A DNA stretch of 38,910 nt. It comes from a virus. Numbering within the stretch: position 1 is the first letter of the stretch; the number at the start of each line of letters is the position of its first letter. The translations under genes were made by a program, and so were the position numbers. The notes under the pieces were generated by a model that worked only from the letters and a program-made list of their open reading frames with translations, made no database searches and was not told the DNA's origin. The DNA is taken from the IMG/VR virus record IMGVR_UViG_3300042906_001042, positions 1 to 38,910 of that record. The stretch is one strand, 5' to 3'. This document shows positions 1 through 38,910 of this stretch, one piece after another.

Positions 1-197
1 GTGCATGGCGGATGCGCCACCATCAGCAGATCCCAGCCGTCATGCAGCAGGTCGCGCGCGTCGCCACGGATGTGGCGGTTGCTGCCGTCCTCGCTCGGCA
101 GCAGGTCGCATGACCAAGCGTCGCAACCGCGCGCAAGGAACGCGCGGCGCACGACGCCCGAATATTCGCAGGCCACGAGGACGCGCAGCGGGGTCAC
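1..197 (-). CDS. Cytosine-C5 DNA methyltransferase-like protein, N-terminal part (cut by window start)
   Basis: The 65 visible residues start at GTG (197) and run off the window. They carry an N-terminal SAM-binding-like segment (VLVACEYSG) and reach the PPC of catalytic motif IV. Along its whole visible length this is a near copy of the intact gene at 36266-36892, with a handful of base changes; one of them turns the ATG start into GTG. Its start overlaps the stop of the 53-aa membrane protein gene by the same bases as in the other copy. Family knowledge: C5 methyltransferases attack cytosine through the motif IV Cys. The truncation is a window-edge effect, not evidence of a broken gene. Confidence 0.75.
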   Translation of the reverse strand, partial: MTPLRVLVACEYSGVVRRAFLARGCDAWSCDLLPSEDGSNRHIRGDARDLLHDGWDLLMVAHPPC

Positions 198-355
198 CGC
201 AACCCCGCCAGCGCAATCACCACCGCGCCCGTCACGACGCCGAGCAAGGCGAAGGCGAACCAGTAGACCGCCGTTCCCTGCCACCGCCGGTCCTCGTCCA
301 TCCAAGCCAGCGCATCCCTGCTGGCCTGGACGCGGCGCTCCTGTTCTTCGGTCAT
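194..355 (-). CDS. Small single-pass membrane protein (53 aa), left copy
   Basis: The charged N-terminal half (MTDEQERR... then WMDEDRRWQG) is followed by a membrane segment around residues 29-50 (YWFAFALLGVVTGAVVIALA). The ATG at 355 has GGAGG eight bases upstream; an in-frame ATG at 361 lies too close to that site. The stop overlaps the methyltransferase start (GTGA). It is homologous to the 53-aa gene at 36889-37050 and diverges mainly near the N-terminus. It could be a holin-like or envelope peptide of the early operon, but the function is unknown. Confidence 0.75.
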   Translation of the reverse strand: MTEEQERRVQASRDALAWMDEDRRWQGTAVYWFAFALLGVVTGAVVIALAGLR

Positions 356-371
356 TTCCATTTCCTCCTTT

Positions 372-610
372 TGCCTGCCTCACCGAGCCTTGCCCCGCCG
401 CGCCGCGCCACGCCTGCCTTGCCCCGCCGCGCCTTGCCGGACCGCGCTCCGCCAAGCCTGCCTTGCCTCGTCGTACCCCGCCCAGCCTCGCCGTGCCGTG
501 CCTGCCTTGCCGCGCCGTGCCGTGTCATACCCGGCCGCGTCCGGCCATGCCACGCCTGCCATGCCTCGCCCCGCCAGTCCTCGCCTGGCCGAGCCGCGCC
601 TCGCCTGCCT
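372..610. repeat. Degenerate pentanucleotide array, (NNGCC)n on plus strand / (GGCNN)n on minus strand
   Basis: About 240 bases are built almost entirely of five-base steps with GCC at fixed phase, roughly 45 units. There are occasional one-base phase slips, usually at gcctgcc. The array fills the gap between the stop codon of the 151-aa gene (610-612) and the ribosome-binding site of the 53-aa gene (about 363-368), and encroaches on neither. Stop codons are nearly absent because of the repeat, so open frames through it are artefacts. It is transcribed as a GGCNN RNA within the leftward operon. Role unknown. Confidence 0.85.
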
Positions 611-1065
611 TACCCGGCGCGCTTCTTGCGCTCGTTGCGCGCAAGAAACTTGTCGATGCTCGCGCGCAGCTCGTCGCTGGCGTCAAGCGCGTCGGCGTAG
701 CGCAACAGCCGCGCTTGGACGCTTCGCAGGTCGGTCAGCAGATGCGCGATGACCGCCCGCGTCGCTTCCGGCGACGACTGCACCACCGAGACCGCGACGT
801 ACTCGCGCGATCCCCGATCCACGTTGAGATAGGCGCGCACAGGCGGCTCGTTGGGCTTGTGCGGTTCCAGATGAACGACCACGCGGCGGATCAGCCCGCG
901 GGCTTGAAGCAGCCGATACTTCTCGGCAGCGTCGGCGTCGTCCCAATCGAACATCGAGTGCAGCGACGAATTGGGGCTGCGCGCCCGATCCACGACGGCT
1001 TCCGGCGTGAGCTTGTCGCCAAGTTCTCGCGCCATTTCCTCCAGTTCGCGCTCCCAGCGGGACAT
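610..1065 (-). CDS. Conserved phage protein of the recombination module (151 aa)
   Basis: The N-terminal part has the pattern ARSPNSSLHSMFDWDDADAA followed by EKYRLLQAR. I recognise this as a family common beside recT or exonuclease genes in phages, with no function I can name. The C-terminal half is helical and charged and ends in a basic tail (RNERKKRAG). The ATG at 1065 overlaps the stop of the 209-aa gene (TGATG), so translation is probably coupled. The stop abuts the pentamer array. Cytoplasmic; no membrane segment seen. Confidence 0.8.
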   Translation of the reverse strand: MSRWERELEEMARELGDKLTPEAVVDRARSPNSSLHSMFDWDDADAAEKYRLLQARGLIRRVVVHLEPHKPNEPPVRAYLNVDRGSREYVAVSVVQSSPEATRAVIAHLLTDLRSVQARLLRYADALDASDELRASIDKFLARNERKKRAG

Positions 1066-1694
1066 CACGACACCACCTCGAACGTACCCCAGCCGAGCCC
1101 GTAGCTCTCGCGGCTGAACGGACGCCCCTCTCCGACGCCGATCTGCATTCCGGCGCGGGCCAGCAGGTTGGACACATCCCCGACCCTGAACTGGTCGCCA
1201 TCCCAGCGCACCCGCAGCGTGGCGCTCCAGCGCCGGAACATCGGCCTGGAACGCAAGTCGGTCACGCCCGTCTGGTTTCGCGTCGCGGCGACGTGCTGCT
1301 CGTAGTCGCCGATGATCCGCACCAGCGGCTGTCCGCTGACGAGGTCGAGTCCGTCCGCCTCGACGAAGACGGACATCTTCGCCATCGTCATCTTGAAGCC
1401 GACCAGGCGGCAGGCATCGATCATCGCCGCGCGCCATGCCGACGCCGGGAAGCCGATGGTGCCATCCTCCAAGCGGTGCAGCGCCGCCTCGCAGTCAGCC
1501 GCGAAGTCGCGCGCCTCGCGCTCCTTCTTCGACTTCGCCGTCGATCCGGCCTCATGCTTCTCGCGCATCTTCTGACGCGCCTTCTCCGAGAAGGCGGCCA
1601 TGACCAGCGGCGCGGTGCCGACGATCTCGAACTGCGCGCGCTCGAACTTCGGCGCGGCGATGGTGACGATCTCTTGCTTCGTGAACGCGTTCAT
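1065..1694 (-). CDS. Conserved phage recombination-associated protein (209 aa)
   Basis: The start is the ATG at 1694, five bases after GGGAGG. An upstream in-frame TTG lies inside the end of recT and lacks a site. Characteristic stretches are an N-terminal IVGTAPLVMAAFSEKARQKM, a Lys/Glu-rich linker, then a central FPASAWRAAMIDACRLVGFK and PLVRIIGDY. I know this arrangement from phage proteins encoded next to RecT. It may be an accessory single-strand DNA handling protein, but that is inference from position. It lies between recT (14-base gap) and the 151-aa gene (overlap). Confidence 0.8.
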   Translation of the reverse strand: MNAFTKQEIVTIAAPKFERAQFEIVGTAPLVMAAFSEKARQKMREKHEAGSTAKSKKEREARDFAADCEAALHRLEDGTIGFPASAWRAAMIDACRLVGFKMTMAKMSVFVEADGLDLVSGQPLVRIIGDYEQHVAATRNQTGVTDLRSRPMFRRWSATLRVRWDGDQFRVGDVSNLLARAGMQIGVGEGRPFSRESYGLGWGTFEVVS

Positions 1695-1708
1695 CTGAAC
1701 CTCCCTTT

Positions 1709-2647
1709 TCAACTAGCCAGATCCGCCACCCGGCGGCGGCTCTCCTCCATGATGCGCTCATGCGCCTCGGGCGACGCGGCGCTGATGTCGTCGAGGTTGC
1801 CACGCTGGGCCAGCATGATCTTGTCGATGTCCTTGACGCTCGCCGCCTTGCGGATCGCCGCGACGATGGCGCGGGCGAGCTCGGCCAGCCCGGGCGTGAG
1901 GGTTGCGCCGGTCGGGGCCTCTGGTGAGGAGGCTGCGGGGGAGGGGGGAACCGCATCCGACACGGCCGGCGCGTTGTTGTCGGCCTCTTGTTCGGTGGCA
2001 TCGAGGAGGGCGTCCATCGCGGCGCTGACGGCGGCGAGGGGGGTGGAGGGCGGGGTGATGTCGATGGCGCTGGCCGGGCCGCGCGCCTGGACGACGTCGA
2101 TCTCCTCCGCGACCGGCAGGCCCATCATCACCTCGGGCGCGAAGAGGCGGATGAGCATCGTGGCGCTGCGGTAGCGCAGCATCTGGTCGGGCATCGTCCG
2201 GTACTTCGGGTTCTTCGTCCAGCCCTCGGCCTCGGCCATCGCCATCGACGCGGTGGCCTCGACCGGCTCGCCGCTATCGGCCAGCGTAGCGAAGGCGGTG
2301 ACGCGCAGGTTCTTGTGCTCGCCCTCGACGCGCCAGTTGATGCGACGCGCGAACACACCCGAGCGGTTGGCCTTGGCGATCATGTAGGTGGCCGACCAGC
2401 CCGCGCGCCCGGAGACGAAGTAGATGTTCTGCAGGACGACCAGCGGCTCCTCGCGCGTCCGCTTCGCGATGGCGTATGCGATGAGGCAGTCGGCCATCTT
2501 GCCGCGCAGGTGCGGCGGGACGAGTTCGCTGGCGGCGAACATCTTCGCGACGCGCTGCGAGTGCTCGAAGTGCGCGGGCGCGAGCGGATCGTAGTCCGAC
2601 ACGGCGGCGGGCAGGTTCACGACGTTGGTGGCGATCTCGTTGGTCAT
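1709..2647 (-). CDS. recT: RecT-family single-strand annealing protein
   Basis: The 312 residues show typical RecT features: a PPHLRGKMADCLIAYAIAKR stretch near residue 43, a QNIYFVSGRAGWSATYMIA block near residue 75, and KNPKYRTMPDQMLRYRSAT followed by LFAPEVMMGLP around residues 142-175. The C-terminal third is a Pro/Ala-rich linker plus a helical tail. RecT proteins anneal complementary strands and work with a partner exonuclease, which here is the upstream gene overlapping by four bases (ATGA). In the phage it should support recombination repair and circularisation of genome ends. Confidence is high for the family. Confidence 0.92.
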   Translation of the reverse strand: MTNEIATNVVNLPAAVSDYDPLAPAHFEHSQRVAKMFAASELVPPHLRGKMADCLIAYAIAKRTREEPLVVLQNIYFVSGRAGWSATYMIAKANRSGVFARRINWRVEGEHKNLRVTAFATLADSGEPVEATASMAMAEAEGWTKNPKYRTMPDQMLRYRSATMLIRLFAPEVMMGLPVAEEIDVVQARGPASAIDITPPSTPLAAVSAAMDALLDATEQEADNNAPAVSDAVPPSPAASSPEAPTGATLTPGLAELARAIVAAIRKAASVKDIDKIMLAQRGNLDDISAASPEAHERIMEESRRRVADLAS

Positions 2648-3513
2648 TGCGCGTATCCCTTCTGAATGCTGGTTGCGATTTCGTTGGCCGCCCACTGCGG
2701 GAGGCCGATTTCGACTACACCCGTGGTGTAACCCGGCCAGCTATCATCCGCAACGCTTTTCGCGAAGCGGCGCAGGATCTGGCGCAGCTGCTGGTCGGCG
2801 GCGCTCGCGGCGTCGGCGGACAGGGCGGCGACGTAGCCGATGAAGGGCTCGTCGTTGCCGACCACCATGAACGCATGGGTCGGGCGCTGGATGCCGAGCG
2901 TCGAGGCGACCAGCCGGAACATCGCGTCCCCGAGGTCGTATCTGAGATTGGCGGCGGTCTTGCGCCAGGAGTTCGGCGCGGGCGATGCGGTGGTCTTGAG
3001 GTTCACCGCCAGCCCGGCGCGCGAGATGTAGAGGTCGGGGCGGCACAGCAGCGTCAGGCCGGTCTCCTCGTCCTTCGCGACCATCGTCACCTCGGCGCGA
3101 CCGCCGGCCTCGAGGAGGCGGCGAGCGTCGGCGTTCTTCATCAGCCCATCGCGCATGCCGACGATCCGCATGTGGTCGCTGAAGGAGACGATCTGCCGGT
3201 CGCCCTGCGCCTCGCGCCAGGCCCTGCCCTCTCGGGTCGAGAGATTGAGCCCCTCGGGCTTGACCGAGAAGCGCTGGTGGAAAACCTCGGCGCCCTCCAA
3301 GATGTAGCAGTGCGCGGCGGTCCCCAGCGCCATCGACGCGCTCGGCTCGCGGTGGACGCGGGCCGGGTTGCCGCGCCAGAAGGCGTGTGCATGGGCCGGG
3401 CATTCGGTCTCGTATGAGACGAGGTCGCTGCCGCTGACCGCCGGGGCCGCGAAGGCCTCGGCGCTCAGGTACGCCTCGAACGAGACGTCGTTGTGGATGC
3501 CGTCGCTGATCAC
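2644..3513 (-). CDS. PDDEXK exonuclease, RecE C-terminal / DUF3799-like (partner of RecT)
   Basis: The 289 residues start at GTG (3513) with GGGAGA upstream. Visible motifs are GTAAHCYILE with His68, Glu141 in AEVTM, Asp160 in CRPDLY and Lys173 in NLKT. This is the H...E...D...K layout of PDDEXK exonucleases such as the RecE C-terminal domain and lambda Exo. The known role is 5'-to-3' resection of duplex DNA to give the single strand that RecT coats. The stop overlaps the recT start, as expected for a two-gene recombinase. Confidence 0.88.
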   Translation of the reverse strand: MISDGIHNDVSFEAYLSAEAFAAPAVSGSDLVSYETECPAHAHAFWRGNPARVHREPSASMALGTAAHCYILEGAEVFHQRFSVKPEGLNLSTREGRAWREAQGDRQIVSFSDHMRIVGMRDGLMKNADARRLLEAGGRAEVTMVAKDEETGLTLLCRPDLYISRAGLAVNLKTTASPAPNSWRKTAANLRYDLGDAMFRLVASTLGIQRPTHAFMVVGNDEPFIGYVAALSADAASAADQQLRQILRRFAKSVADDSWPGYTTGVVEIGLPQWAANEIATSIQKGYAQ

Positions 3514-3656
3514 TTTTCGATCTCCCTCTTCATCTGGCGGTGGACCCAGCCGCGCAGGGCCGCGAGGCGGCTCGCCTTCTTACCGCGCGGGGCGTGGGCC
3601 GCGCGCTTGATCATGCTGCGATAGACCCGCAGCAGCTTGCGCTTCTCGCTGGTCAT
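3510..3656 (-). CDS. Small basic protein (48 aa)
   Basis: A 48-residue, strongly basic, helical peptide rich in Lys and Arg (for example MTSEKRKLLRVYRSMIKRAA near the start). Its stop overlaps the exonuclease GTG start and its own start overlaps the stop of the 59-aa gene (ATGA). Those tight overlaps on both sides are the main reason to call it a gene. It may bind nucleic acid because of its charge, but no family is recognised. Confidence 0.65.
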   Translation of the reverse strand: MTSEKRKLLRVYRSMIKRAAHAPRGKKASRLAALRGWVHRQMKREIEK

Positions 3657-3832
3657 CGGTTGCCCTCCAGCGCCGCTAGCTGGCGCTCCAGCTCCGCGAT
3701 CCGCTGATGCGCGAGCAGGTAGTCGAGCGTCTCGGGGTTGAGGTCGCGGGCCAGCTCGACCCGCAGGGCGATGCGAGCGCGCAGGACGCCGGGCGTCTGC
3801 GGGATCGCGGCGGCGGCGGGGAAGCGCTTCAT
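3653..3832 (-). CDS. Small coiled-coil protein (59 aa), paralogue of 37247-37435
   Basis: The protein has the plan TPGVLRARIALRVELAR, then a short acidic stretch, then a C-terminal helix ending AELERQLAALEGNR. The 62-aa protein at 37247-37435 has the same plan and an almost identical ending (ALERQLAALEGGR). Both genes lie directly downstream of a tiny membrane peptide gene in their operons. This is strong evidence that the two leftward operons are versions of one ancestral module. Function unknown. Confidence 0.75.
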   Translation of the reverse strand: MKRFPAAAAIPQTPGVLRARIALRVELARDLNPETLDYLLAHQRIAELERQLAALEGNR

Positions 3833-3894
3833 GCCAGCACCATGATCGCGGCCAGGACGACGCCCATGAGGGCCTGCAGCCAGAGGGGGGACAT
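3829..3894 (-). CDS. Tiny membrane peptide (21 aa)
   Basis: The 21 residues, MSPLWLQALMGVVLAAIMVLA, are essentially one membrane helix. The ATG at 3894 follows a GGGGGGA ribosome-binding site by about seven bases, and both ends overlap neighbouring genes by a few bases. A 27-aa membrane peptide sits at the matching place in the other leftward operon (37432-37515). The role could be a lysis or superinfection-related microprotein; nothing in the sequence decides. Confidence 0.6.
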   Translation of the reverse strand: MSPLWLQALMGVVLAAIMVLA

Positions 3895-4193
3895 CAGCGG
3901 TCCCCCCTGAGCCAATCGGGATAGTCGCCGTCGAAGGGCTCAGCGGGCGTCGCGTCGTCGCGGATGAAGCGCGCCGTGGGGTCGGTGAGCCGCTCGACGA
4001 GGATCTCGGCGTCGTAGAGGACGCCGCGCAACTCGCTCTCGGAGATGGCGCGGCAGTTGTAGTGCTGCGCGTTGATCTCCTCGACCTCCTTGGCGACCGC
4101 GTTCAGGATCTCCCAGACCTGATCGCAGGTGCGGCGGCGAAGCAGCGCGAGGTCGGCGAGGCTGCGCTCGGCGTTTTCGACGTCGATCATCAT
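3894..4193 (-). CDS. Hypothetical protein (98-99 aa)
   Basis: A helical protein beginning MMIDVENAERSLADLALLRR and ending in an acidic Trp-containing tail (DGDYPDWLRGDR). Two consecutive ATG codons (4193, 4190) follow a GAGG-like site, so the exact start is open by one residue. The stop overlaps the start of the 21-aa peptide gene. No family recognised. It is the second gene of the leftward operon starting at the promoter near 4551-4578. Confidence 0.7.
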   Translation of the reverse strand: MMIDVENAERSLADLALLRRRTCDQVWEILNAVAKEVEEINAQHYNCRAISESELRGVLYDAEILVERLTDPTARFIRDDATPAEPFDGDYPDWLRGDR

Positions 4194-4198
4194 GGCCC

Positions 4199-4504
4199 TC
4201 ACTCCTCCAGCGCGGCCTGAAGCGCATCGCGCGCCTCGAAGGTGAACTCGCCGATCAGCGTGTCGGCGTTGAGCAGGGCGTCGCGCCAGTTGCGCTTGGC
4301 CTGCGCGTCCTGCGCGTCGGTGAAGCCCGAGGGCTCCTGCCACTCGCGCTCGGTGACCTCGCGCAGCTCCTCCAACGCGGCGACGATCTTGTTCATCGCC
4401 TGCGTCTCGGCGCGCTTGAGGCGGCGCAGGCTCGCCTCGATGAAGTCGTAGTAGTCGCGCGTGTGCGCGTAGCTCTCGCCGTGATCGTTCTCGTCGCGAA
4501 GCAT
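4199..4504 (-). CDS. Hypothetical protein, first gene of the left early operon (101 aa)
   Basis: The ATG at 4504 is preceded by a strong AGGAGG nine bases upstream. The protein is predicted mostly helical and acidic, with a Glu/Gln/Ala-rich middle and an acidic end (ARDALQAALEE). No family recognised. It is the first gene after the divergent promoter region, the place where phages often put a regulator or anti-repressor, but no DNA-binding motif is visible. Confidence 0.72.
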   Translation of the reverse strand: MLRDENDHGESYAHTRDYYDFIEASLRRLKRAETQAMNKIVAALEELREVTEREWQEPSGFTDAQDAQAKRNWRDALLNADTLIGEFTFEARDALQAALEE

Positions 4505-4550
4505 TGTCTGTCCCTCCTGGTTTCTGCCCGGCACCACCCGGACAAGGCGA

Positions 4551-4578
4551 AACATACACCATCGCTTTAGCCGCGCAA
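4551..4578 (-). promoter_or_regulatory. Leftward early promoter (left arm)
   Basis: Read on the minus strand, TTGCGC (4578-4573) and TATGTT (4556-4551) are separated by 16 bases. They lie about 45 bases upstream of the first leftward gene. A GTGTA half-site like those of the operator at 4609-4625 runs into the -10 box. Inference from consensus only. Confidence 0.5.
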
Positions 4579-4601
4579 GCGCTTTCCGCGAAATTGTGTG
4601 C

Positions 4602-4630
4602 TTGACCTCTACACCGCGCGTGTAGTAGCC
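4602..4630 (+). promoter_or_regulatory. Rightward early promoter with dyad operator (operator 4609-4625)
   Basis: TTGACC at 4602-4607 is followed after 17 bases by a weak -10 (GTAGCC, or TAGTAG in a shifted register). Inside the spacer lies a perfect dyad, CTACAC-N5-GTGTAG. The -35 and the five-base dyad spacer match the right-end immunity region, but the half-site differs (TACAC instead of GATAC). The Cro-like gene starts at 4639, so its mRNA would be nearly leaderless. The dyad is seen directly; promoter activity is inferred. Confidence 0.55.
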
Positions 4631-4638
4631 GTCGAGAC

Positions 4639-4842
4639 ATGACCCTGATCGACTTCATCGCCGCCCTCGGCGGCACCTACGCCACCGCCCGCGCGTTCTC
4701 CACGACGCCGCAGGCTATCAGCAATTGGAAGCGTCGCCAGCGGTTGCCCGCCGCGCGGCAGCTCGAGGCCTTCCGCATCGCGCGCGCCAAGCGGCTTGCG
4801 TTCGATCCGGTCGCCGCGACGCGCCGCGAGGCCCGGCGATGA
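4639..4842 (+). CDS. Cro/YdaS-like helix-turn-helix repressor (67 aa)
   Basis: A short one-domain HTH protein: FIAALGGTYATARAFSTTPQ, then AISNWKRRQRLPAARQLEAF. The second helix-turn-helix half (TPQAISNWKRR) and the RLP motif are typical of Cro/YdaS regulators. The position, divergent from the leftward operon and over a dyad operator, fits a Cro role. The same architecture appears in the truncated gene at 38766-38910. The stop overlaps the next start (ATGA). Confidence 0.82.
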   Translation: MTLIDFIAALGGTYATARAFSTTPQAISNWKRRQRLPAARQLEAFRIARAKRLAFDPVAATRREARR

Positions 4843-5576
4843 GGCGCGACACCGCGATAGAGCGCGTGTCCAACGCGCTGCGTGCCGAGGGCGGACGCGC
4901 CTCGACGCAGCGGCTGTGCGAAGTGCTGGCTAGCATGGACAGGGGGTTGGTGTTGATGGCCCTCGCGCATTTGAAGCGCCGCGAGCTGGTAGACAGCGAC
5001 TACGCTCCGCGCAAGCAGCCCGAGTGCGGCTGGAGCTACTGGTTCACGCCCGCGAAGAGGGTGCATCGCGGCAGCCGTTTCAAGGCGGCGGTGTCGAACG
5101 GCTACACCCGGCTCGTCGTCGAGTACCTCGACGCGGCTGGCGGCGAGGCGCCGATCGACGAATGGCTCGCGTGGAGCGCGCAGATCACGCATCGGGTGCG
5201 GCTGCACAGCGGCGTCCACAGCCTGCGGCGGCGCGGGCTAATCGAGGTCGGCAAGGCGCGCGTTCGGCTGACCGACACGGGCCGGCAGGCGCTCGCGCTC
5301 GGTCGCACCGTCGCTCCCATAGCGCCGACCATCGCGGACTTCGAGGACATCGCCGAGCCCGAGACGCGATCGACCGATCCCGAGGCCTGCGTCGCGCGCG
5401 CCGAGAAGCTATGGCCGAAGCTGATGCGCGGCAGGCGCTACGAGGACGTCCCGGCGCACCTCATCCGCCCGCAGCGCCTGCTGCGATGGACGCCGCCGCT
5501 GGTTGAGCGCAGCATGACCGGGTCGAGCGGGGCGATGCTGGCCGAAAGCCGCGATGCGACGGGAGGCACGCCGTGA
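4839..5576 (+). CDS. Winged-helix DNA-binding protein, probable early regulator or replication accessory (245 aa)
   Basis: There are two winged-helix-like parts. The first is at residues 1-60 (VSNALRAEGGRASTQRLCEVL then LAHLKRRELV). The second is around residues 85-145 (YLDAAGGEAPIDEWLAW, HSLRRRGLIEV, RVRLTDTGRQAL). The C-terminal tail is disordered and Pro/Ser-rich. No named family is recognised. It sits between the Cro-like gene and the resolvase gene with overlaps at both ends, so it belongs to the rightward early operon. Regulatory or origin-binding roles are both possible. Confidence 0.75.
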   Translation: MRRDTAIERVSNALRAEGGRASTQRLCEVLASMDRGLVLMALAHLKRRELVDSDYAPRKQPECGWSYWFTPAKRVHRGSRFKAAVSNGYTRLVVEYLDAAGGEAPIDEWLAWSAQITHRVRLHSGVHSLRRRGLIEVGKARVRLTDTGRQALALGRTVAPIAPTIADFEDIAEPETRSTDPEACVARAEKLWPKLMRGRRYEDVPAHLIRPQRLLRWTPPLVERSMTGSSGAMLAESRDATGGTP

Positions 5577-5947
5577 GAACGTGGCGCGGCGTCATCCTGG
5601 GCGAGCCCGCGAGCAAGGCCAACTCGCGCCGCATCGTGCGGTTCGGGTCGAAGTTGCGGGTCATCAAGAGCGAGAAGGGGCTCGCGTACATCGAGGCGGT
5701 TGCGCGGCAAGTTCCCGAGCTGCCAGCGCAGGACCAGCTGCTCGAGCCGATCCGCATGACCGCTCACATCTACTACGCCTCGCGGCGACCGGACCTCGAT
5801 CCGTCGCTGATCCTCGACGCGCTGCAGGGCCGCGTCTACCGCAACGACCGCGCGGTGCGAGAAATGCACCTGTATCACCACCTCGACCGCGAAAACCCTC
5901 GGGCCGAGATTTTTCTAGAGGAGATGACCGATGAGCACGAACAGTAA
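5573..5947 (+). CDS. RusA-family Holliday junction resolvase-like endonuclease
   Basis: The 124 residues start at GTG with GGAGG six bases upstream. The RusA signature is visible as RRPDLDPSLILDALQGRVYR-NDRAV, giving Asp74, Asp76 and Asp92 as the probable metal-binding acids, with a basic N-terminal region (KANSRRIVRF). RusA homologues cut four-way junctions. In phages they resolve recombination intermediates and branched DNA before packaging, which fits a genome that also encodes RecT and an exonuclease. Confidence 0.85.
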   Translation: MRTWRGVILGEPASKANSRRIVRFGSKLRVIKSEKGLAYIEAVARQVPELPAQDQLLEPIRMTAHIYYASRRPDLDPSLILDALQGRVYRNDRAVREMHLYHHLDRENPRAEIFLEEMTDEHEQ

Positions 5948-6143
5948 AAAGAGCGAATACCTAACTCCAATTGAGGCCGCGCGTGAATTGATGATGACAC
6001 CTGGCGGTGTCAGGACGGCGATCCGGCGCGGCGCGCTGCCTGCGTTGCGCGTTCTGGGAAGGCTGAAGCTGCGCGCGGAAGATGTGCGCGCTGCGAAGGA
6101 GGGTAGTCCCACAGCAGCGGAGGTTCGTCATGCAAAACGATGA
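5931..6143 (+). CDS. Excisionase-like HTH_17 DNA-binding protein (70 aa)
   Basis: The pattern YLTPIEAARELMMTPGGVRT then IRRGALPALRVLGRLKLRAEDV is the MerR/excisionase-type winged helix of the HTH_17 family. The ATG lies inside the end of the resolvase gene, 17 bases of overlap, with GAGGAG seven bases upstream. No integrase gene is visible in the window, so an excision role cannot be argued; transcriptional regulation is equally likely. The local A+T is a little higher than in its neighbours. Confidence 0.78.
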   Translation: MSTNSKKSEYLTPIEAARELMMTPGGVRTAIRRGALPALRVLGRLKLRAEDVRAAKEGSPTAAEVRHAKR

Positions 6144-6378
6144 CCTGACCCGCTACGCCGAGCGCCTCACGCGCCTGCTCGACGCCGCCGACGAGGTGCG
6201 CGACGACCTCAAGGAGTTGAAGGTCGAGATCAAGAGCGCGGGCTACGATCCGGCGGCGCTGGTGCGCGTCGTGCAGCTGCGGCGCGACGAGCGCAAGCGG
6301 GCGCGGGAGCAGGAGCGGCTGCAGGCGGTGACGCTCTACGCCGACAGGCTGGGCGTCCAGCTCGACCTCGCGATCTAG
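6130..6378 (+). CDS. DUF2312 (GapR-like) nucleoid-associated protein (82 aa)
   Basis: The residues form a coiled-coil-type helix (RYAERLTRLLDAADEVRDDL, KELKVEIKSAGYDPAALVRV) followed by LRRDERKRAREQERL and LYADRLGVQL. This is the DUF2312 pattern: two helices around a GYD..AL turn, then a short helix. GapR of Caulobacter binds AT-rich and overtwisted DNA and supports replication. The ATG at 6130 has GGAGG six bases upstream; longer in-frame starts have none. A phage copy beside the replication genes could help fork progression or silence host DNA. Confidence 0.8.
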   Translation: MQNDDLTRYAERLTRLLDAADEVRDDLKELKVEIKSAGYDPAALVRVVQLRRDERKRAREQERLQAVTLYADRLGVQLDLAI

Positions 6379-6429
6379 GAACAGGCCGGGCCCTCCCTTG
6401 CCGTGGCCGGCGGGCCGCGGAACCTAAAA

Positions 6430-6491
6430 GCGATCCAGCGGGCTCTGCCCGTCAACCAGCCCCTGGCCGGTGCGTTTGCTGGATGGATCGC
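6430..6491 (+). repeat. Imperfect inverted repeat in the 5' leader of the 23-aa peptide gene
   Basis: GCGATCCAGC (6430-6439) can pair with GCTGGATGGATCGC (6478-6491), with a small bulge. The rest of the 6379-6521 gap is GC-rich with further short dyads and no open frame I trust. It may be an RNA leader structure; no riboswitch family is recognised. Confidence 0.4.
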
Positions 6492-6521
6492 TCCCGCCAC
6501 TCAACCCGAACGGAGGAAGCA

Positions 6522-6593
6522 ATGGTTCTCGGATGGCAGGATTTCGTCGTGATCGGCATCATCGTCTGGGCGCTGCTGGACGGCAGGCGATAG
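6522..6593 (+). CDS. Tiny membrane peptide (23 aa)
   Basis: MVLGWQDFVVIGIIVWALLD followed by GRR: one hydrophobic helix with a basic end. GGAGG lies five bases before the ATG and a TAG stop follows. The gene stands alone between the DUF2312 gene and the replication genes, flanked by hairpins on both sides. It resembles in size and plan the 21-, 27- and 28-aa membrane peptides of the leftward operons. Confidence 0.6.
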   Translation: MVLGWQDFVVIGIIVWALLDGRR

Positions 6594-6609
6594 CCGGGCT
6601 AGAAATGAC

Positions 6610-6664
6610 GCGCCCCGGCCTGCGCAAACAGACCGGGGCGCAACGGACTGCCACAACCAGTCCG
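6610..6664 (+). terminator. Tandem hairpins after the 23-aa peptide gene (possible attenuator)
   Basis: There are two perfect dyads in a row: GCGCCCCGG (6610-6618) with CCGGGGCGC (6633-6641), and CGGACT (6644-6649) with AGTCCG (6659-6664). No T-run follows, so factor-independent termination is doubtful. The structure could attenuate transcription into the replication genes or stabilise the upstream mRNA. Confidence 0.45.
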
Positions 6665-6726
6665 GCCACGATGGCGCGCCGAACCTATCGCGCGCGACGG
6701 GCCGGATCAACGTCGAAAGGGCGCTG

Positions 6727-33791: not shown

Positions 33792-34157
33792 ATGTCGGAC
33801 TTGGACGACCAGAAATGGCGGGTCGGAGCGACATGGCCCAGCCCCGAGGCACGGCGCGTCTCGCCGCCTGTCGCCTCGCACACCCTGCCTGACCCGATCG
33901 CGCCGCCGAGGAGGACTGCCGTGCAAGAACAAGCCCTGTTGGATCACGCGCAGCAGATCGGCGCGCTGAAGTCCGAGGTCGCGCACATGACCGACCGCAT
34001 CGAGGACATGGACAAGAAGCTCGACCAGATCATCGCGGCGGCGAACATGGGCAAGGGCGCGTGGCTCGCGGCGGTGAAGGCCGGTGGCATCCTCGCGACG
34101 CTCGGGGCCGGCGCCGCGTGGCTCTGGGGCCACCTACAGACCTTCATGCATCGCTGA
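33792..34157 (+). CDS. Membrane-anchored coiled-coil protein, probable lysis accessory (121 aa)
   Basis: A polar, Pro-rich N-terminus is followed by a coiled coil (LDHAQQIGALKSEVAHMTDR, IEDMDKKLDQIIAAA). A single membrane helix near the C-terminus (AVKAGGILATLGAGAAWLWG) ends the protein. This plan is seen in holin-like and spanin-like proteins of phages. It sits three bases after the membrane protein gene and ten before the holin gene. Confidence 0.65.
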   Translation: MSDLDDQKWRVGATWPSPEARRVSPPVASHTLPDPIAPPRRTAVQEQALLDHAQQIGALKSEVAHMTDRIEDMDKKLDQIIAAANMGKGAWLAAVKAGGILATLGAGAAWLWGHLQTFMHR

Positions 34158-34167
34158 GGAGACCGAC

Positions 34168-34575
34168 ATGGCACCCCTGCTTGCCGCCCTTCTGCCGATC
34201 TTCGGGTCGGTCATCGACAAGGTGATCCCCGACAGGGCCGCCGCCGACAAGGCGAAGCTGGAGGCGCAGGCGCAGCTCGTCGCCGCCGCCACCCAGGGCG
34301 CGCTCGCACAACTCGAGGTCAACAAAGTCGAGGCCGCGCACCAGAGCGTGTTTGTCGCGGGCTGGCGACCGGCGATCGGCTGGGTGTGTGCGGCCGCGCT
34401 GGCCTACAGCTACATGCTCGTCCCGCTCGTCGGCTTCACGCTCGCCCTGCTTGGGCAGCCGGTGCCGCGCTGGCCGGTGCTGGACAACAATCTCTGGGAG
34501 CTCATGTTCGGCATGCTCGGCATGGGCGCGCTGCGTTCGTGGGACAAGGCGCAGGAGCGCAAGGGTGGCGGCTGA
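34168..34575 (+). CDS. Holin, three-helix GTA/PF11351-type (135 aa)
   Basis: The family signature is a short N-terminal hydrophobic segment (LLAALLPIFGSVIDKV), an Ala/Gln/Lys amphipathic region, then VFVAGWRPAIGWVCAAALAY followed by further membrane segments (MLVPLVGFTLALLG, MFGMLGMGALRSW). Holins make the inner-membrane lesion that frees the endolysin. GAGGAG lies upstream of the ATG. The endolysin GTG starts inside its last codons. Confidence 0.82.
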   Translation: MAPLLAALLPIFGSVIDKVIPDRAAADKAKLEAQAQLVAAATQGALAQLEVNKVEAAHQSVFVAGWRPAIGWVCAAALAYSYMLVPLVGFTLALLGQPVPRWPVLDNNLWELMFGMLGMGALRSWDKAQERKGGG

Positions 34576-35080
34576 GAACTGGGGCGAGGCTTTCCGCGCG
34601 CTGCTGCGCCACGAAGGCGGCTTCGTCAACCACCCGAAAGATCCCGGCGGCATGACCAACTTGGGCGTGACCAAGCGCGTCTGGGAGGAATGGACCAGCC
34701 ATCCCGCGAACGAGGCCGACATGCGCGGCCTGACGCCGGGCATGGTCGAACCGCTCTATCGCGACAGGTACTGGCGCAAGGTTCGCGGCGACGAGCTGCC
34801 GGCGGGCGTCGATTTGGCGGTCTTCGATTGCGCCGTCAACAGCGGGCCGGGGCGCGCGGCGATGCTGCTGCAGCAGGCCATCGGCGTCTGGCCGGATGGC
34901 GTGATCGGGCCGAAGACGATGGCGGCGATCAAGGCGGCGGACGCGAAGGCGACCGTGGATCGGTTCTGCGACCTGCGGCTGGCGTTCCTGCGCGGCCTGC
35001 CGACATGGCCAACGTTCGGGAAGGGCTGGGAGCGGCGCGTCGAAGATGTGCGGCGGCAGGCGAAGGGGATGGTAGGCTGA
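34565..35080 (+). CDS. Endolysin, glycoside hydrolase family 108 (171 aa)
   Basis: The GH108 motif is RHEGGFVNHPKDPGGMTNLG with catalytic Glu17, followed by GVTKRVWEEW and YRDRYWRKVRGDELPAGVDL. The later part has a peptidoglycan-binding-like repeat (LLQQAIGVWPDGVIGPKTMA). GH108 enzymes cleave the glycan strands of peptidoglycan. The GTG start at 34565 has AGGAG seven bases upstream and overlaps the holin by 11 bases. There is no signal peptide, so release depends on the holin. It is the last gene of the rightward late block. Confidence 0.9.
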   Translation: MAAENWGEAFRALLRHEGGFVNHPKDPGGMTNLGVTKRVWEEWTSHPANEADMRGLTPGMVEPLYRDRYWRKVRGDELPAGVDLAVFDCAVNSGPGRAAMLLQQAIGVWPDGVIGPKTMAAIKAADAKATVDRFCDLRLAFLRGLPTWPTFGKGWERRVEDVRRQAKGMVG

Positions 35081-35090
35081 CGCGCGGTCG

Positions 35091-35106
35091 CTACTCGCAA
35101 GAGTAG
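35091..35106. terminator. Short hairpin at the convergent end of the late and leftward operons
   Basis: CTACTC-GCAA-GAGTAG is a perfect 6-bp stem with a GNRA-type loop, lying ten bases after the endolysin stop and over the stop codon of the opposite gene. It is short and without a T-run. A boundary role is possible, but the evidence is weak. Confidence 0.4.
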
Positions 35107-35636
35107 ACGCTCTCCGACCGTCGCAGCGGCAGCCATCGCGGCACGGTCGTGAAGGACTTGTCGCGGAACAGGACCCGGTTGGTCGGCTGGATGGTCAGGC
35201 GACCGCCATCGGTTCGCAGGAACATGAATTCCTTCGCCTGCGCCGGAGCGTGCGTGTAGGCGTCTCCGACCGGGATGGCCGTGAACAGGTATTCCGCGCC
35301 CAGCTCGGCGTCTGCCGCGCGCACGATCGCGCCGAGGCCGTCGAGGTAGTCGTAGGTGTGCAAGGAGAACTGCGAGCCGTAGCAATCCCATTCCTGCGCG
35401 TCCTTGATCGTCCACGGATCGGGATCGCTGCAGAAAGCCAGCGCGTGAGGCGGGAGGTCTCGGTAGACCGCGCCGCACTCGAGCAGCACCGTGCAGCCCC
35501 ACGCGCGGCCAGGATGGCTGTGCAAGCCGAACCAGACCGCAGGGAACCATTCGTCGGCACCGAGGCCGATGAAGGCACCGCAGACCGAAACGTACTGATG
35601 GCGCGGCAGGCTGCCGCTGGCGGTGAAGAGCGTCAT
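35091..35636 (-). CDS. Hypothetical protein at the end of the right leftward operon (181 aa)
   Basis: It begins MTLFTASGSLPRHQYVSVCG and is rich in aromatic residues and Cys/His (ADEWFPAVWFGLHSHPGRAW, CYGSQFSLHTYDYLDGL). It is predicted as a compact mixed fold without membrane segments. No family recognised. The start overlaps the stop of the 28-aa peptide gene (ATGA). It lies in a slot where phages often carry host-takeover or defence genes; that is inference from place. Confidence 0.72.
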   Translation of the reverse strand: MTLFTASGSLPRHQYVSVCGAFIGLGADEWFPAVWFGLHSHPGRAWGCTVLLECGAVYRDLPPHALAFCSDPDPWTIKDAQEWDCYGSQFSLHTYDYLDGLGAIVRAADAELGAEYLFTAIPVGDAYTHAPAQAKEFMFLRTDGGRLTIQPTNRVLFRDKSFTTVPRWLPLRRSESVYSCE

Positions 35637-35719
35637 GGCAGCGCCATCGTGATCGTGATGGCCCAGAGGGCGATGTAGGACGCGACCGCGACGACGGCGG
35701 CGATGGTGTGGAGGCTCAT
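35633..35719 (-). CDS. Tiny membrane peptide (28 aa)
   Basis: MSLHTIAAVVAVASYIALWA followed by ITITMALP is a single hydrophobic helix. The start overlaps the stop of the 130-aa gene and the stop overlaps the next start, so it is translationally coupled on both sides. One of several peptides of this kind in the early operons. Function unknown. Confidence 0.6.
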   Translation of the reverse strand: MSLHTIAAVVAVASYIALWAITITMALP

Positions 35720-36108
35720 GGCTTGGCCTCTTCTGCGCTCGCTTGTGGGAATAGTTTGATCTTCGCTCCGTTCGGGAAGATTGCGTGGAGGACCGCCTCC
35801 ATCACCTCGACGCGGGCGCGGAGGCGCTCGTTTTCCGCGCGCAGGTGATGCACATCACCTGCTTTAAATGCCTCCACGATGATACCAAGCGTCGCGTCAA
35901 AATCTCCGCACAAGAAAAAATCGCGGAGCAGGATGTCACGGTAGTGCGTACTTTTTGACAGGCGATGCTGTAACTCTCTGTCGTTTAACACGAAGATCCA
36001 GTCGATAAGAGCATCGGACCATGAGCGATCATAATCCGCGCACACCTCGTCCATGCTTTGAAGATCATCCAAGATCCACTCTCGTTCTGTTTTGATCTTG
36101 TCGCTCAT
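35716..36108 (-). CDS. Hypothetical protein, AT-richer than neighbours (130 aa)
   Basis: Helical and acidic: MSDKIKTEREWILDDLQSMD, ADYDRSWSDALIDWIFVLND, then a C-terminal coiled coil (HHLRAENERLRARVEVMEAV). GGAGG lies seven bases before the ATG. The middle of the gene (about 35860-36070) is clearly less GC-rich than the rest of the operon, suggesting recent acquisition. No family recognised. Confidence 0.72.
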   Translation of the reverse strand: MSDKIKTEREWILDDLQSMDEVCADYDRSWSDALIDWIFVLNDRELQHRLSKSTHYRDILLRDFFLCGDFDATLGIIVEAFKAGDVHHLRAENERLRARVEVMEAVLHAIFPNGAKIKLFPQASAEEAKP

Positions 36109-36269
36109 CGCCCATCCTCCATTTCCACGACCGCCATCCCGGCGGCCTCGATTGCGTTGACCACCCGAATCAGGAACGCCAGCCGATGCTGATCGACCGG
36201 GCATTCGGAGTCGGGCGCGTATTGGTAGAGCTGCCGGAATGCGCGGCGGGCGGTTTTTTCGGGGGTCAT
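36105..36269 (-). CDS. Small hypothetical protein (54 aa)
   Basis: MTPEKTARRAFRQLYQYAPD followed by SECPVDQHRLAFLIRVVNAI and a short acidic end. Predicted helical. Its start overlaps the methyltransferase stop and its stop overlaps the next start, both by four bases. No family recognised. Confidence 0.68.
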   Translation of the reverse strand: MTPEKTARRAFRQLYQYAPDSECPVDQHRLAFLIRVVNAIEAAGMAVVEMEDGR

Positions 36270-36892
36270 GCTGCCGACCTCCACGCATGCTCGGTCCATT
36301 GCTCGGCCATCGCTGCGGCGATGCCTGGAAAGAAGCGCGAGCGTTCCTTCCAGCGCGTCGGGCTCGGCGGCATCCGGTGGACGCGCTGCTCGCGGCCCTC
36401 GACGACGTTCGTCGGGCGCAGCGGCGGCAGGCCACGCAGCCACAAGCAAGTGCGCTTCGTCTCGCCGTGGCCGAACTGCCAGGGCTGCACCGATTGCGCC
36501 GGCTCCGCGTAGTTCTCGATCAGCCGCTTGGCATGTCCGTGCATCACCGGGTTTTCGACCGCGACGCGCGGGATCGGCGCGTTCCAGAACGCGCTGAACA
36601 GCGCCGCGCCCTCGCGCAGCTCGAGCTCCATCTGCCCGGCGGTCTTGCCGGGCGGCGGCGTGTGCAACCACCTGACGCCGCTGTTGCACAGGCGGGTGCA
36701 TGGCGGATGCGCCACCATCAGCAGATCCCAGCCGTCATGCAGCAGGTCGCGCGCGTCGCCACGGATGTGGCGGTTGCTGCCGTCCTCGCTCGGCAGCAAG
36801 TCGCACGACCAGGCGTCGCAACCGCGCGCAAGGAAGGCGCGGCGCACGACGCCCGAATATTCGCAAGCCACAAGGACGCGCAGCGGGGTCAT
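36266..36892 (-). CDS. Cytosine-C5 DNA methyltransferase-like protein (208 aa), intact copy
   Basis: SAM-binding-like start VLVACEYSGVVRRAF, an acidic turn (DLLPSED), motif IV HPPCTRLC with Cys65, and motif VI VENP at 112-115. The C-terminal part (HGETKRTCLWLRGLPPLRPT) is short. At 208 residues it is well below a usual C5 methyltransferase, and I see no normal target-recognition domain. It may be a phage-specific minimal form or a non-canonical enzyme. Likely role: modifying phage DNA against restriction. A near-identical truncated copy lies at the left edge of the window. Confidence 0.78.
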   Translation of the reverse strand: MTPLRVLVACEYSGVVRRAFLARGCDAWSCDLLPSEDGSNRHIRGDARDLLHDGWDLLMVAHPPCTRLCNSGVRWLHTPPPGKTAGQMELELREGAALFSAFWNAPIPRVAVENPVMHGHAKRLIENYAEPAQSVQPWQFGHGETKRTCLWLRGLPPLRPTNVVEGREQRVHRMPPSPTRWKERSRFFPGIAAAMAEQWTEHAWRSAA

Positions 36893-37050
36893 CGCAACCC
36901 CGCCAGCGCAATCACCACCGCGCCCGTCACGACGCCGAGCAAGGCGAAGCAGAACCAGTAGACCGCCGTTCCCTGCCACCGCCGGTCCTCGTCCATCCAC
37001 GCCCAGGCCTCTCGGCTGGCGCGGAGCAGGCGCTCCTGCTCGTCGGTCAT
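36696..37050. repeat. Right copy of the diverged direct repeat (partner 1-355)
   Basis: Gap-free alignment to 1-355. It covers the 5' part of the methyltransferase gene and the whole 53-aa membrane protein gene, and ends at that gene's start codon. Mismatches are mostly scattered single bases until the last 55 bases, where divergence rises. Confidence 0.9.
36889..37050 (-). CDS. Small single-pass membrane protein (53 aa), right copy
   Basis: MTDEQERLLRASREAWAWMD, then EDRRWQGTAVYWFCFALLGV and VTGAVVIALAGLR. It has a charged N-terminus and one membrane helix (about residues 29-50). Homologue of 194-355. The start overlaps the stop of the 67-aa gene, whereas the left copy is preceded by the pentamer array. 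Membrane role likely; function unknown. Confidence 0.75.
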   Translation of the reverse strand: MTDEQERLLRASREAWAWMDEDRRWQGTAVYWFCFALLGVVTGAVVIALAGLR

Positions 37051-37250
37051 CGGTTGACCTCCTCGAGCTCAAGCGGGCGCCGGAACGCCGCGGCGATCTC
37101 GTCGCGGATGCGGTCGGCCTGGTGGACGGAGACCTGCAGCGTGATGTCGCCCACGCTGATGGCGACGAACTCCACCTCGCCGGCGTGGTAACGGACCGAC
37201 ACGAGCGCGTCGCTCGACGGCATCAAGCTGGCAAAGCAGCACCGGCTCAT
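37047..37250 (-). CDS. Hypothetical protein (67 aa) replacing the recombination cassette
   Basis: MSRCCFASLMPSSDALVSVR then YHAGEVEFVAISVGDITLQV: a beta-rich start with a helical, acidic end (RRPLELEEVNR). It occupies the place where the left operon has the exonuclease-RecT-array segment, between the small coiled-coil gene and the 53-aa membrane gene. Coupled to both neighbours by ATGA overlaps. No family recognised. Confidence 0.65.
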   Translation of the reverse strand: MSRCCFASLMPSSDALVSVRYHAGEVEFVAISVGDITLQVSVHQADRIRDEIAAAFRRPLELEEVNR

Positions 37251-37435
37251 CGCCCGCCCTCCAACGCCGCGAGCTGGCGCTCCAGCGCGGCGATCTGCTG
37301 CTGCTGGTTGAGGTAGCGGACGCTCTCGACGTCGACGCCACGAAGCAGCTCCGCGCGGATGGCGATGCGCCCGCGCAAGGTCGCCGGCGTCACCGGCAGG
37401 TCGGCGCGGTAGCCCGTGGTCAGCGGCTTGCTCAT
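37247..37435 (-). CDS. Small coiled-coil protein (62 aa), paralogue of 3653-3832
   Basis: TPATLRGRIAIRAELLRGVD then VESVRYLNQQQQIAALERQL-AALEGGR. The left-arm protein at 3653-3832 shares the plan and C-terminal motif. Its start overlaps the stop of the 27-aa membrane peptide gene, the same neighbour order as on the left. Function unknown; the helix suggests a multimer. Confidence 0.75.
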   Translation of the reverse strand: MSKPLTTGYRADLPVTPATLRGRIAIRAELLRGVDVESVRYLNQQQQIAALERQLAALEGGR

Positions 37436-37515
37436 GGCGTCACCAGGAGCAGGCCGTAGATCATCGCGGCGGCCATGATCCCGACCGCCCAGTCGGACAG
37501 CGAAGGCATCTTCAT
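37432..37515 (-). CDS. Tiny membrane peptide (27 aa)
   Basis: MKMPSLSDWAVGIMAAAMIY followed by GLLLVTP: one hydrophobic helix after a short polar start. Overlapping starts and stops on both sides. It is the positional counterpart of the 21-aa peptide at 3829-3894. Confidence 0.6.
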   Translation of the reverse strand: MKMPSLSDWAVGIMAAAMIYGLLLVTP

Positions 37516-37694
37516 GCGGCCCCCGCGATCCTCGACGCGACGAGCGCGTCGATCTCGACCTGCAGGCTGATGCGGTGCTGGCGGAGCCGGCTGATCTTCT
37601 GGAGGTCCGCGCCGCGGTCGGCGGCCTCCTCGATCAGCAGGAAGCGCTCGACGTCAGCGAGGCGCTGACGGAGCTCGGCGAGGGTGTCGGTCAT
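37512..37694 (-). CDS. Small helical protein (60 aa)
   Basis: MTDTLAELRQRLADVERFLL then IEEAADRGADLQKISRLRQH. Entirely helical with a heptad-like pattern, probably a small coiled-coil dimer. The start lies 10 bases after the stop of the 73-aa gene and the stop overlaps the next start. No family recognised. Confidence 0.65.
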   Translation of the reverse strand: MTDTLAELRQRLADVERFLLIEEAADRGADLQKISRLRQHRISLQVEIDALVASRIAGAA

Positions 37695-37704
37695 GCGCGC
37701 CCCC

Positions 37705-37926
37705 TCAACCGCGGTAGGCGCGCACGTCGATGCCGCGCTCGGCGGCCCGGCGGTCGTAAGCGTCAGCGAGTTGCGCGTATCCGAGATCGGTGCGCAGCGT
37801 CGGGCGGTAACCGTGGTCCGCCCACTTGTCGATCAGCTGGTCGAGCGTCAGCGCGCCGCAGAACGGCAGGTTCTCTGCCACAAAGCGGTCGGCGTACTCG
37901 ATCTCGCGATTGGTCAGCTTGTTCAT
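37705..37926 (-). CDS. First gene of the right leftward operon (73 aa)
   Basis: MNKLTNREIEYADRFVAENL then PFCGALTLDQLIDKWADHGY, and a basic end (AAERGIDVRAYRG). A strong AGGAGGG site precedes the ATG. It lies about 40 bases downstream of the promoter at 37968-37996. Predicted helical; no family recognised. An early regulatory or anti-host role would fit its place. Confidence 0.7.
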   Translation of the reverse strand: MNKLTNREIEYADRFVAENLPFCGALTLDQLIDKWADHGYRPTLRTDLGYAQLADAYDRRAAERGIDVRAYRG

Positions 37927-37967
37927 CGTCCCTCCTCCGAGCCGCCAATGGGGCGGCAACGGATGGG

Positions 37968-37996
37968 ACGATACGGACTGTATCGGTTCAGGTCAA
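37968..37996 (-). promoter_or_regulatory. Leftward early promoter P_L
   Basis: On the minus strand, TTGACC (37996-37991), a 17-base spacer, and TATCGT (37973-37968). The boxes and spacing are identical to those of the rightward promoter at 38729-38757. Both boxes are covered by operators. It is the only good promoter between the repressor gene and the first leftward gene. Confidence 0.75.
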
Positions 37997-38009
37997 TACA
38001 AAAAGTATC
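37970..38009. promoter_or_regulatory. Paired operators O_L (37970-37984 and 37995-38009)
   Basis: GATAC-GGACT-GTATC (37970-37984, perfect dyad, over the -10) and AATAC-AAAAA-GTATC (37995-38009, one mismatch, over the -35). Centres are 25 bp apart. The same pair with the same geometry stands at 38716-38755. The second site ends one base before the repressor stop codon. Confidence 0.8.
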
Positions 38010-38010
38010 G

Positions 38011-38691
38011 CTAGACGGTGCGACCGGTCCAGATCACCCGGCCCAGCACCGACAGGCCGGCCGGGCGCACGTCCTGGTAGGTCGGATACGCAGCATTGTC
38101 GCTGGCGATCGTCAGCGAGCCGCTGACCGGGTGCCTCGAGCAGCGCTTGCACTGCACCTCGTCGCCCAGGCGGATGACGTAGATGCCATCCCGTCCGACC
38201 GCGGTGACCGTCATGTCGACGAGCACGCTGTCGCCGTGGTGCAAGGTCGGCCACATGCTGTCGCCAGAGATCCGCAGGACAGCCAGCCGATCGGGCGGCG
38301 CGGACGTCACGCCGCGCAGCCAGGACTGCCGGAACACGCTGTAGGAAACCGCGTCGCCATCGGCGCTTTCGACGACGAGCGTGCCGGCGCCGGCCGCAGC
38401 GCCGATGTCGTAGACGGGCAGGGCGAGGTAGTCGATGCCGGCAATGGTGACGGGCGGCATCTCGGCAGCTGCTGGCAGCGTCGCGCCAGTCGCCAGCGGC
38501 TCGCCGCCTATCAGCTGCGCCACCGGCACGCCGAGGGCGCGGGCGTATGCCTGCAGGTGCTTCGCCGGGATCGAGCCGCGGTTGAGGTGCTGGCGCACCG
38601 ACACGGGGTTCAACCCCATGCGTCGCGCGAGGTCTGACGCATCAAGGTTCTGCTCGCGCAGCACGGCGCGGATCTTTTCAGTCGCGTTCAT
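38011..38691 (-). CDS. CI/LexA-type repressor with HTH and S24 peptidase domain (226 aa)
   Basis: The N-terminal helix-turn-helix (DASDLARRMGLNPVSVRQHL) spans about residues 17-40. Ala-Gly pairs near 100-103 could be the self-cleavage site. The S24 domain has Ser145 in ISGDSMWPTL and Lys182 in EVQCKRC as the catalytic pair, followed by LTIASDNAAYPTY. Such repressors hold lysogeny and are inactivated by RecA-stimulated self-cleavage. The ATG at 38691 lacks a clear ribosome-binding site; a longer in-frame start at 38736 would run through the operators and is unlikely. Confidence 0.92.
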   Translation of the reverse strand: MNATEKIRAVLREQNLDASDLARRMGLNPVSVRQHLNRGSIPAKHLQAYARALGVPVAQLIGGEPLATGATLPAAAEMPPVTIAGIDYLALPVYDIGAAAGAGTLVVESADGDAVSYSVFRQSWLRGVTSAPPDRLAVLRISGDSMWPTLHHGDSVLVDMTVTAVGRDGIYVIRLGDEVQCKRCSRHPVSGSLTIASDNAAYPTYQDVRPAGLSVLGRVIWTGRTV

Positions 38692-38715
38692 GGTGAAGCG
38701 TTTAGCATTCGAAAC

Positions 38716-38755
38716 GATACAAAAGGTATTGACCAAATGGCTTACACTATGTATC
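38716..38755. promoter_or_regulatory. Paired operators O_R (38716-38730 and 38741-38755)
   Basis: GATAC-AAAAG-GTATT (38716-38730, over the -35) and CTTAC-ACTAT-GTATC (38741-38755, over the -10). Spacer length and 25-bp centre spacing equal those of O_L. They lie between the divergent repressor and Cro-like genes, the expected site of a lysis/lysogeny switch. Confidence 0.8.
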
Positions 38756-38757
38756 GT
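38729..38757 (+). promoter_or_regulatory. Rightward early promoter P_R
   Basis: TTGACC (38729-38734), 17 bases, TATCGT (38752-38757). The ATG of the Cro-like gene is at 38766, only eight bases past the -10, so this transcript would be leaderless or nearly so. Identical boxes occur in P_L. Confidence 0.75.
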
Positions 38758-38765
38758 CCCCGGTC

Positions 38766-38910
38766 ATGGCCGATACAGTACAGCTTGTGACCCGCCTCTT
38801 CGGGTCGACCCGCGAAGTCGCTGCCGTGACGGGCGTCACGCCGGTCGCAGTGCGCGCGTGGCGTCGACGGAAGTCGATCCCCGCGCGCCACATCGCGGCC
38901 CTACTCGCCG
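38766..38910 (+). CDS. Cro-like HTH regulator, N-terminal part (cut by window end)
   Basis: 48 visible residues: LVTRLFGSTREVAAVTGVTP then VAVRAWRRRKSIPARHIAAL. The plan is that of the Cro-like protein at 4639-4842 (TPQAISNWKRRQRLPAARQL), with WRRRKSIP matching WKRRQRLP. Divergent from the repressor over O_R. The gene is cut by the window edge, not visibly broken. Confidence 0.8.
   Translation, partial: MADTVQLVTRLFGSTREVAAVTGVTPVAVRAWRRRKSIPARHIAALLA

Follow-up and report, generated by a model that had tools for sequence, protein, structure and literature searches.

Closest described systems

VIPR systems are phage-borne and have been described as a single RAMP-like protein with a small accessory gene and a flanking array of alternating GGY and NN (PMC13142463; PDB 36pp, SUSP1 Vipr), and VIPR vrRNA carries an invariable structured 3' tail. 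The virus record analyzed here comprises 38,910 bases (the window, meaning the whole stretch at full length), and its two ends are called the left and right arms. The left arm holds a cassette with one RAMP-like protein, a candidate accessory gene and a flanking array of this kind, which appears to be a VIPR-type system in agreement with the published description; its array, however, consists of five short units (7–10 NN) joined by AGGC, this delimiter is the only recurrent element, and no separate conserved tail was recognised. In a second comparison, with tailed phages that exchange mosaic segments across virulent and temperate types (lambdoid-type immunity region), the right arm has the CI-type S24 repressor, the divergent promoter and Cro. 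The left arm retains a promoter box, an operator-like repeat and Cro, whereas its lineage is without repressor and integrase and has exonuclease and RecT in a leftward operon.

Graph-based assemblers produce contigs that overlap by k bases at forks (PMC10914622), and the de Bruijn contig ends described with COBRA share one exact k-mer and then diverge, with the result that circular phages are classed as linear since their ends differ (PMC10914622). The ends of the window are alike in both respects, but with an overlap of 103 nt, and the branch taken would lead to a different temperate phage instead of a strain variant and would have imported a repressor. The nearest named phages by portal protein are Myxococcus phages Mx8/Mx9 and Bradyrhizobium phage ppBjS10J-1 (34–41% amino acid identity), which are too distant for genus or host assignment, and DNA comparison with cultured phages gave only short patches, mainly in the methyltransferase and lysozyme genes. 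According to the reading that we favor (probability about 0.93), the record is one circular phage of 36,695 bp plus 2,112 bases of a different, temperate phage added by assembly, and the pairing of the two ends is a product of assembly.

Overlapping ends and closure of the circle

Positions 1–355 align to 36696–37050 without gaps (93.5%, E = 3.6e-153). The preliminary description had reported about nine mismatches among the first 300 bases, and the count is exactly nine (104, 111, 117, 141, 171, 177, 197, 255 and 256); the similarity was said to end at a start codon, which proved to be the ATG of a 53-amino-acid membrane-peptide gene (355/37050). Its other observations on the gene content of the two ends were also borne out. 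Both ends carry a tiny membrane peptide next to a homologous coiled-coil gene (74% DNA identity over 146 columns, E = 2e-17), and both have a TTGACC box (4602–4607 and 38729–38734), each preceding a YdaS/P22-Cro-like HTH gene. Exonuclease VIII-like and RecT genes are found in one arm and an S24 CI-like repressor in the other. The features of the ends and of the circle are as follows.

1–36695: circular genome, junction 36695/1 (L011 identity; closed relative G018)
1–103: fork sequence, left copy, at the contig start and inside the methyltransferase gene; equal to 36696–36798, first mismatch at 104
36696–36798: fork sequence, right copy, equal to 1–103
36266–36892, minus strand: DNA methyltransferase, complete copy (phrog_757, E = 8.8e-61), with the fork inside the gene
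194–355, minus strand: 53-aa membrane peptide gene, left copy
36889–37050, minus strand: 53-aa membrane peptide gene, right copy
3653–3832, minus strand: small coiled-coil gene, left version
37247–37435, minus strand: small coiled-coil gene, right version
3829–3894, minus strand: tiny membrane peptide (hydrophobic ORF), left version, adjoining the left coiled-coil gene
37432–37515, minus strand: tiny membrane peptide (hydrophobic ORF), right version, adjoining the right coiled-coil gene

The left edge is a cut gene, because base 1 lies inside the methyltransferase gene, which is complete at 36266–36892. The 103-mer occurs exactly in six exonuclease-arm contigs (L003 and L007–L011) and in the repressor-arm contig L004. 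The reading of the ends as terminal repeats of a linear molecule was rejected, since the two ends are not identical and base 1 falls within a gene.

A DNA pattern drawn from the repeated part retrieved ten contigs. The contig L011 (IMGVR_UViG_3300037508_001784) equals window 33844–36695 followed by 1–6694, without a mismatch over 2852 + 6694 bases and with four mismatches to the left copy further on, up to window 6966. It likewise has no mismatch to window 33844–36798, and the 23 positions at which it differs from the right copy all lie at or after 36799. Since L011 matches 33844–36798, departs at 36799 and equals the left copy, the resident genome passes from 36695 directly into base 1, which gives a length of 36,695 bp. 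The same colinear join was found at lower identity in L003, L005, L007–L010, L012, L023 and L024. Furthermore, the relative G018 (36,263 bases) spans the entire circle, beginning at window 21146 and passing through 36k and 190 to 21272, with identical 127-nt ends, and this closed genome has the exonuclease/RecT arm only. At the level of sequence, these comparisons demonstrate that the resident genome is a complete circle of 36,695 bp joined at 36695/1, as had been proposed for a circular or circularly permuted genome of about 34–37 kb.

The right arm

36799–38910: right arm, best read as a different temperate phage type imported by assembly; L011 departs at 36799, and L013/L014, which carry integrase, match at 88–96%
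37047–37250, minus strand: 67-aa gene, found in the repressor-arm type only (45–100% amino acid identity in L004, L013, L014, L016 and L025)
38011–38691, minus strand: CI/LexA-type repressor, HTH plus S24 peptidase (PF00717, E = 5.3e-17; phrog_4, E = 2.5e-41)
38729–38757, plus strand: promoter-like site TTGACC-N17-TATCGT before the right Cro gene
38766–38910, plus strand: Cro-like HTH gene, right version, truncated at the window edge (96–98% amino acid identity in L013–L015)

Among 46 related contigs, 40 have the exonuclease/RecT arm, six have the repressor (B) arm and none has both. Tyrosine integrase was found in five of the six repressor-arm contigs, and repressor and integrase occur together in L004, L013, L014 and L016. 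In L015, repressor and Cro are linked to the B-type exonuclease, helicase-primase, terminase, portal and capsid, and the same B-type head genes are present in L016 and L025. The parts common to both phage types are short, namely the methyltransferase (94–95% DNA identity), the membrane peptide, the coiled-coil gene, lysis and tail pieces, and RusA (70%). In the relatives of the right arm, Cro leads to a different gene (about 39% amino acid identity to the window's 4725–5576 product) and to the 70% RusA, so the right-arm Cro is not expected to connect to the window's gene at 4839. The right arm is best read as coming from a different temperate phage, as its immunity region with CI-type repressor, divergent promoter and Cro, and the repressor should therefore not be credited to the resident genome.

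An 8-base inverted repeat (ACGATACA/TGTATCGT) lies on either side of the right-arm promoter, at 38714–38721 and 38750–38757. It is mostly kept in L014 and is likely a repressor operator pair. The search gave no contig that matches the right arm exactly, and none with its exact last 30 bases that continues past the right edge; because there is no identical contig, we infer the exact source of the right arm from the 88–96% relatives. One genome scan with its repressor for a bacterial host or prophage gave only a 33% match, from an Oscillospiraceae MAG.

A proposed assembly fork and other readings of the two arms

The overrun is probably explained by the path of a short-read assembly, a mechanism that we infer from the arrangement of the ends. 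The path would have gone once round the circle and back to the 103-nt stretch in the methyltransferase gene, which would be identical in two co-occurring phages, and would then have taken the other branch at this fork, adding 2,112 bases (36799–38910) from the different phage. Ordinary mosaic exchange would have made the lysis, tail, methyltransferase and small early genes common to both phage types and so produced the fork. An overlap of 103 nt is at most suggestive of a k of 103. The MEGAHIT k-list 23,43,63,83,103,123 was used in JGI metatranscriptome assembly (PMC8125072) and also for a metagenome annotated in IMG (PMC5839234); this list implies a final k of 123, in contrast to the overlap here.

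Overlapping ends were also observed in the near-complete relatives G018, G019, G020 and G021 (L210–L217). The overlap is exact in G018, about 126 nt in G020, and 145 nt with one mismatch in G019. In G021 it extends over 439 nt, of which the first 127 are identical and the first mismatch is at 128, the same signature as in the window but corresponding to a k of 127.

The right arm could instead be a true allele, present in a recombinant population in which the repressor arm replaces the exonuclease/RecT arm on the same backbone. Swapping of phage immunity regions is frequent, the two arms share the methyltransferase, membrane peptide, coiled-coil gene and Cro as neighbours, and L004 connects the methyltransferase to the B arm (94%). 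However, the six B-arm contigs all continue, as far as each reaches, into other genes (integrase, B-type RusA, B primase/helicase, B terminase/portal/capsid), and a B marker was found in none of the 90 contigs with an A (resident-type) terminase, and we consider an allele of this kind very unlikely. The earlier proposal that the ends represent two strains' versions was therefore right in that two versions are followed, but these are not alleles of the same phage, as the B-arm phages have other capsid, replication and integration genes.

The preliminary description had also offered a true duplication as its alternative, in which one phage would have two early control regions. The window record by itself does contain both arms, but no relative does. 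In addition, the left edge is the cut methyltransferase gene, the upstream of which in L011 is window 33844–36695 with 0 mismatches, and a single molecule would have to carry at least 2.9 kb twice in identical form. As far as sequence allows, the duplication is refuted, and it is by far the least credible of these readings.

Left arm and lifestyle of the resident phage

1709–2647, minus strand: RecT-like annealing protein (phrog_561, E = 7.9e-62)
2644–3513, minus strand: exonuclease VIII-like (PF12684)
4602–4625, plus strand: TTGACC box plus inverted repeat CTACAC-N5-GTGTAG, preceding the left Cro gene
4639–4842, plus strand: Cro-like HTH gene, left version (phrog_35, E = 2.3e-8)

Tyrosine integrase (PF00589) had no match in the window, and five of nine records were positive in the same search. 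Neither S24 repressor (PF00717) nor integrase was found in the A-lineage records searched (exonuclease/RecT-arm records and four more distant terminase relatives), and the PF00717 copy of the window sits in the imported arm. Because it has no S24 repressor and no tyrosine integrase of its own, the classes covered by the searches, the resident phage is probably virulent. The TTGAC box and the TACAC...GTGTA inverted repeat upstream of the left Cro gene are largely kept in relatives, to 75% identity, and this conservation suggests that Cro or a similar regulator may still act at the left promoter without a CI-type partner.

A temperate ancestor is hinted at by an excisionase-like HTH gene (5931–6143) and by the retention of Cro together with its operator-like repeat. 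The early operon also encodes a GapR-like DNA-binding protein (6082–6378; PF10073, E = 7.6e-11), and a direct repeat (21542–21643/23151–23249, 77% over 102 bases) is present in the structural gene region.

The VIPR-like cassette

356–1715, minus strand: VIPR-like cassette; the empty site of relatives is 355/CCC/1716
372–606, minus strand: guide array of five NN-GGY repeat units, each with AGGC at its end (VIPR vrRNA-like)
613–1065, minus strand: 151-aa gene, candidate VIPR accessory gene (phrog_15946), adjoining the vipr-like gene
1065–1694, minus strand: vipr-like RAMP gene (phrog_4652)

A profile of six sequences matches the solved SUSP1 Vipr structure (E = 4.8e-4). The Vipr-like protein has 209 amino acids and a conserved glycine-rich C-terminal stretch (GVGEGR...GLGWG), and its gene is 96–99% identical in DNA even where neighbouring genes are 65–80% identical. 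The Foldseek neighbours of its model, which is of low confidence (pLDDT 64), are mostly Cas7/Csm3 (best E 2e-3). The array is GC-rich, with 37 of 42 triplets strictly GGY, and the in-phase run was reached by none of 2000 shuffles. Between homologous units, NN positions differ at 11% and GGY positions at 3%, NN thus changing about four times faster. The arrays of relatives comprise several units, about ten at most, arranged as mosaics, and those downstream of the vipr gene in L225–L243 gave 87 distinct guide units from 17 loci. Guide units ending in AGGC are common to several phages and are reshuffled among them. When units are taken as codon positions 1–2, some resemble protein motifs, one unit of L010 corresponding to T-G-A-G-K-S.

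An Rfam search gave no match. In 2.47 Mb of contigs, candidate targets were no more frequent for the guides than for shuffled guides at skips of 0, 1 and 2. One set gave 19 exact skip-3 matches; these did not reappear in better-masked sets and could stem from residual array sequence. The most widely shared guide has a pattern that is absent from the viral contig collection.

Cassette 356–1715 is missing, with a clean empty site, from L003, L005, L009, L184, L186 and L207 and is present in others, and the temperate phage L015 has the same cassette in its rightward replication operon. Because of the clean empty sites and the occurrence in this temperate relative, the cassette is apparently movable. 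A tentative idea, which we regard as possible though doubtful, is that the VIPR guide cassette of the virulent lineage, rearranged at the level of single units and exchanged with temperate phages that infect the same host, serves as a weapon against rival mobile elements, with the DNA sharing in the methyltransferase/early region as the transfer route.

Implications

Taken at face value, the record would describe a temperate phage with two control regions, the repressor of which is actually foreign. Non-identical end overlaps, as also seen in G019 and G021, can flag complete genomes that are listed as linear, and they can import genes that alter the lifestyle call. With the left arm, a naturally occurring family of modular VIPR-like arrays becomes available for unit-by-unit comparison.
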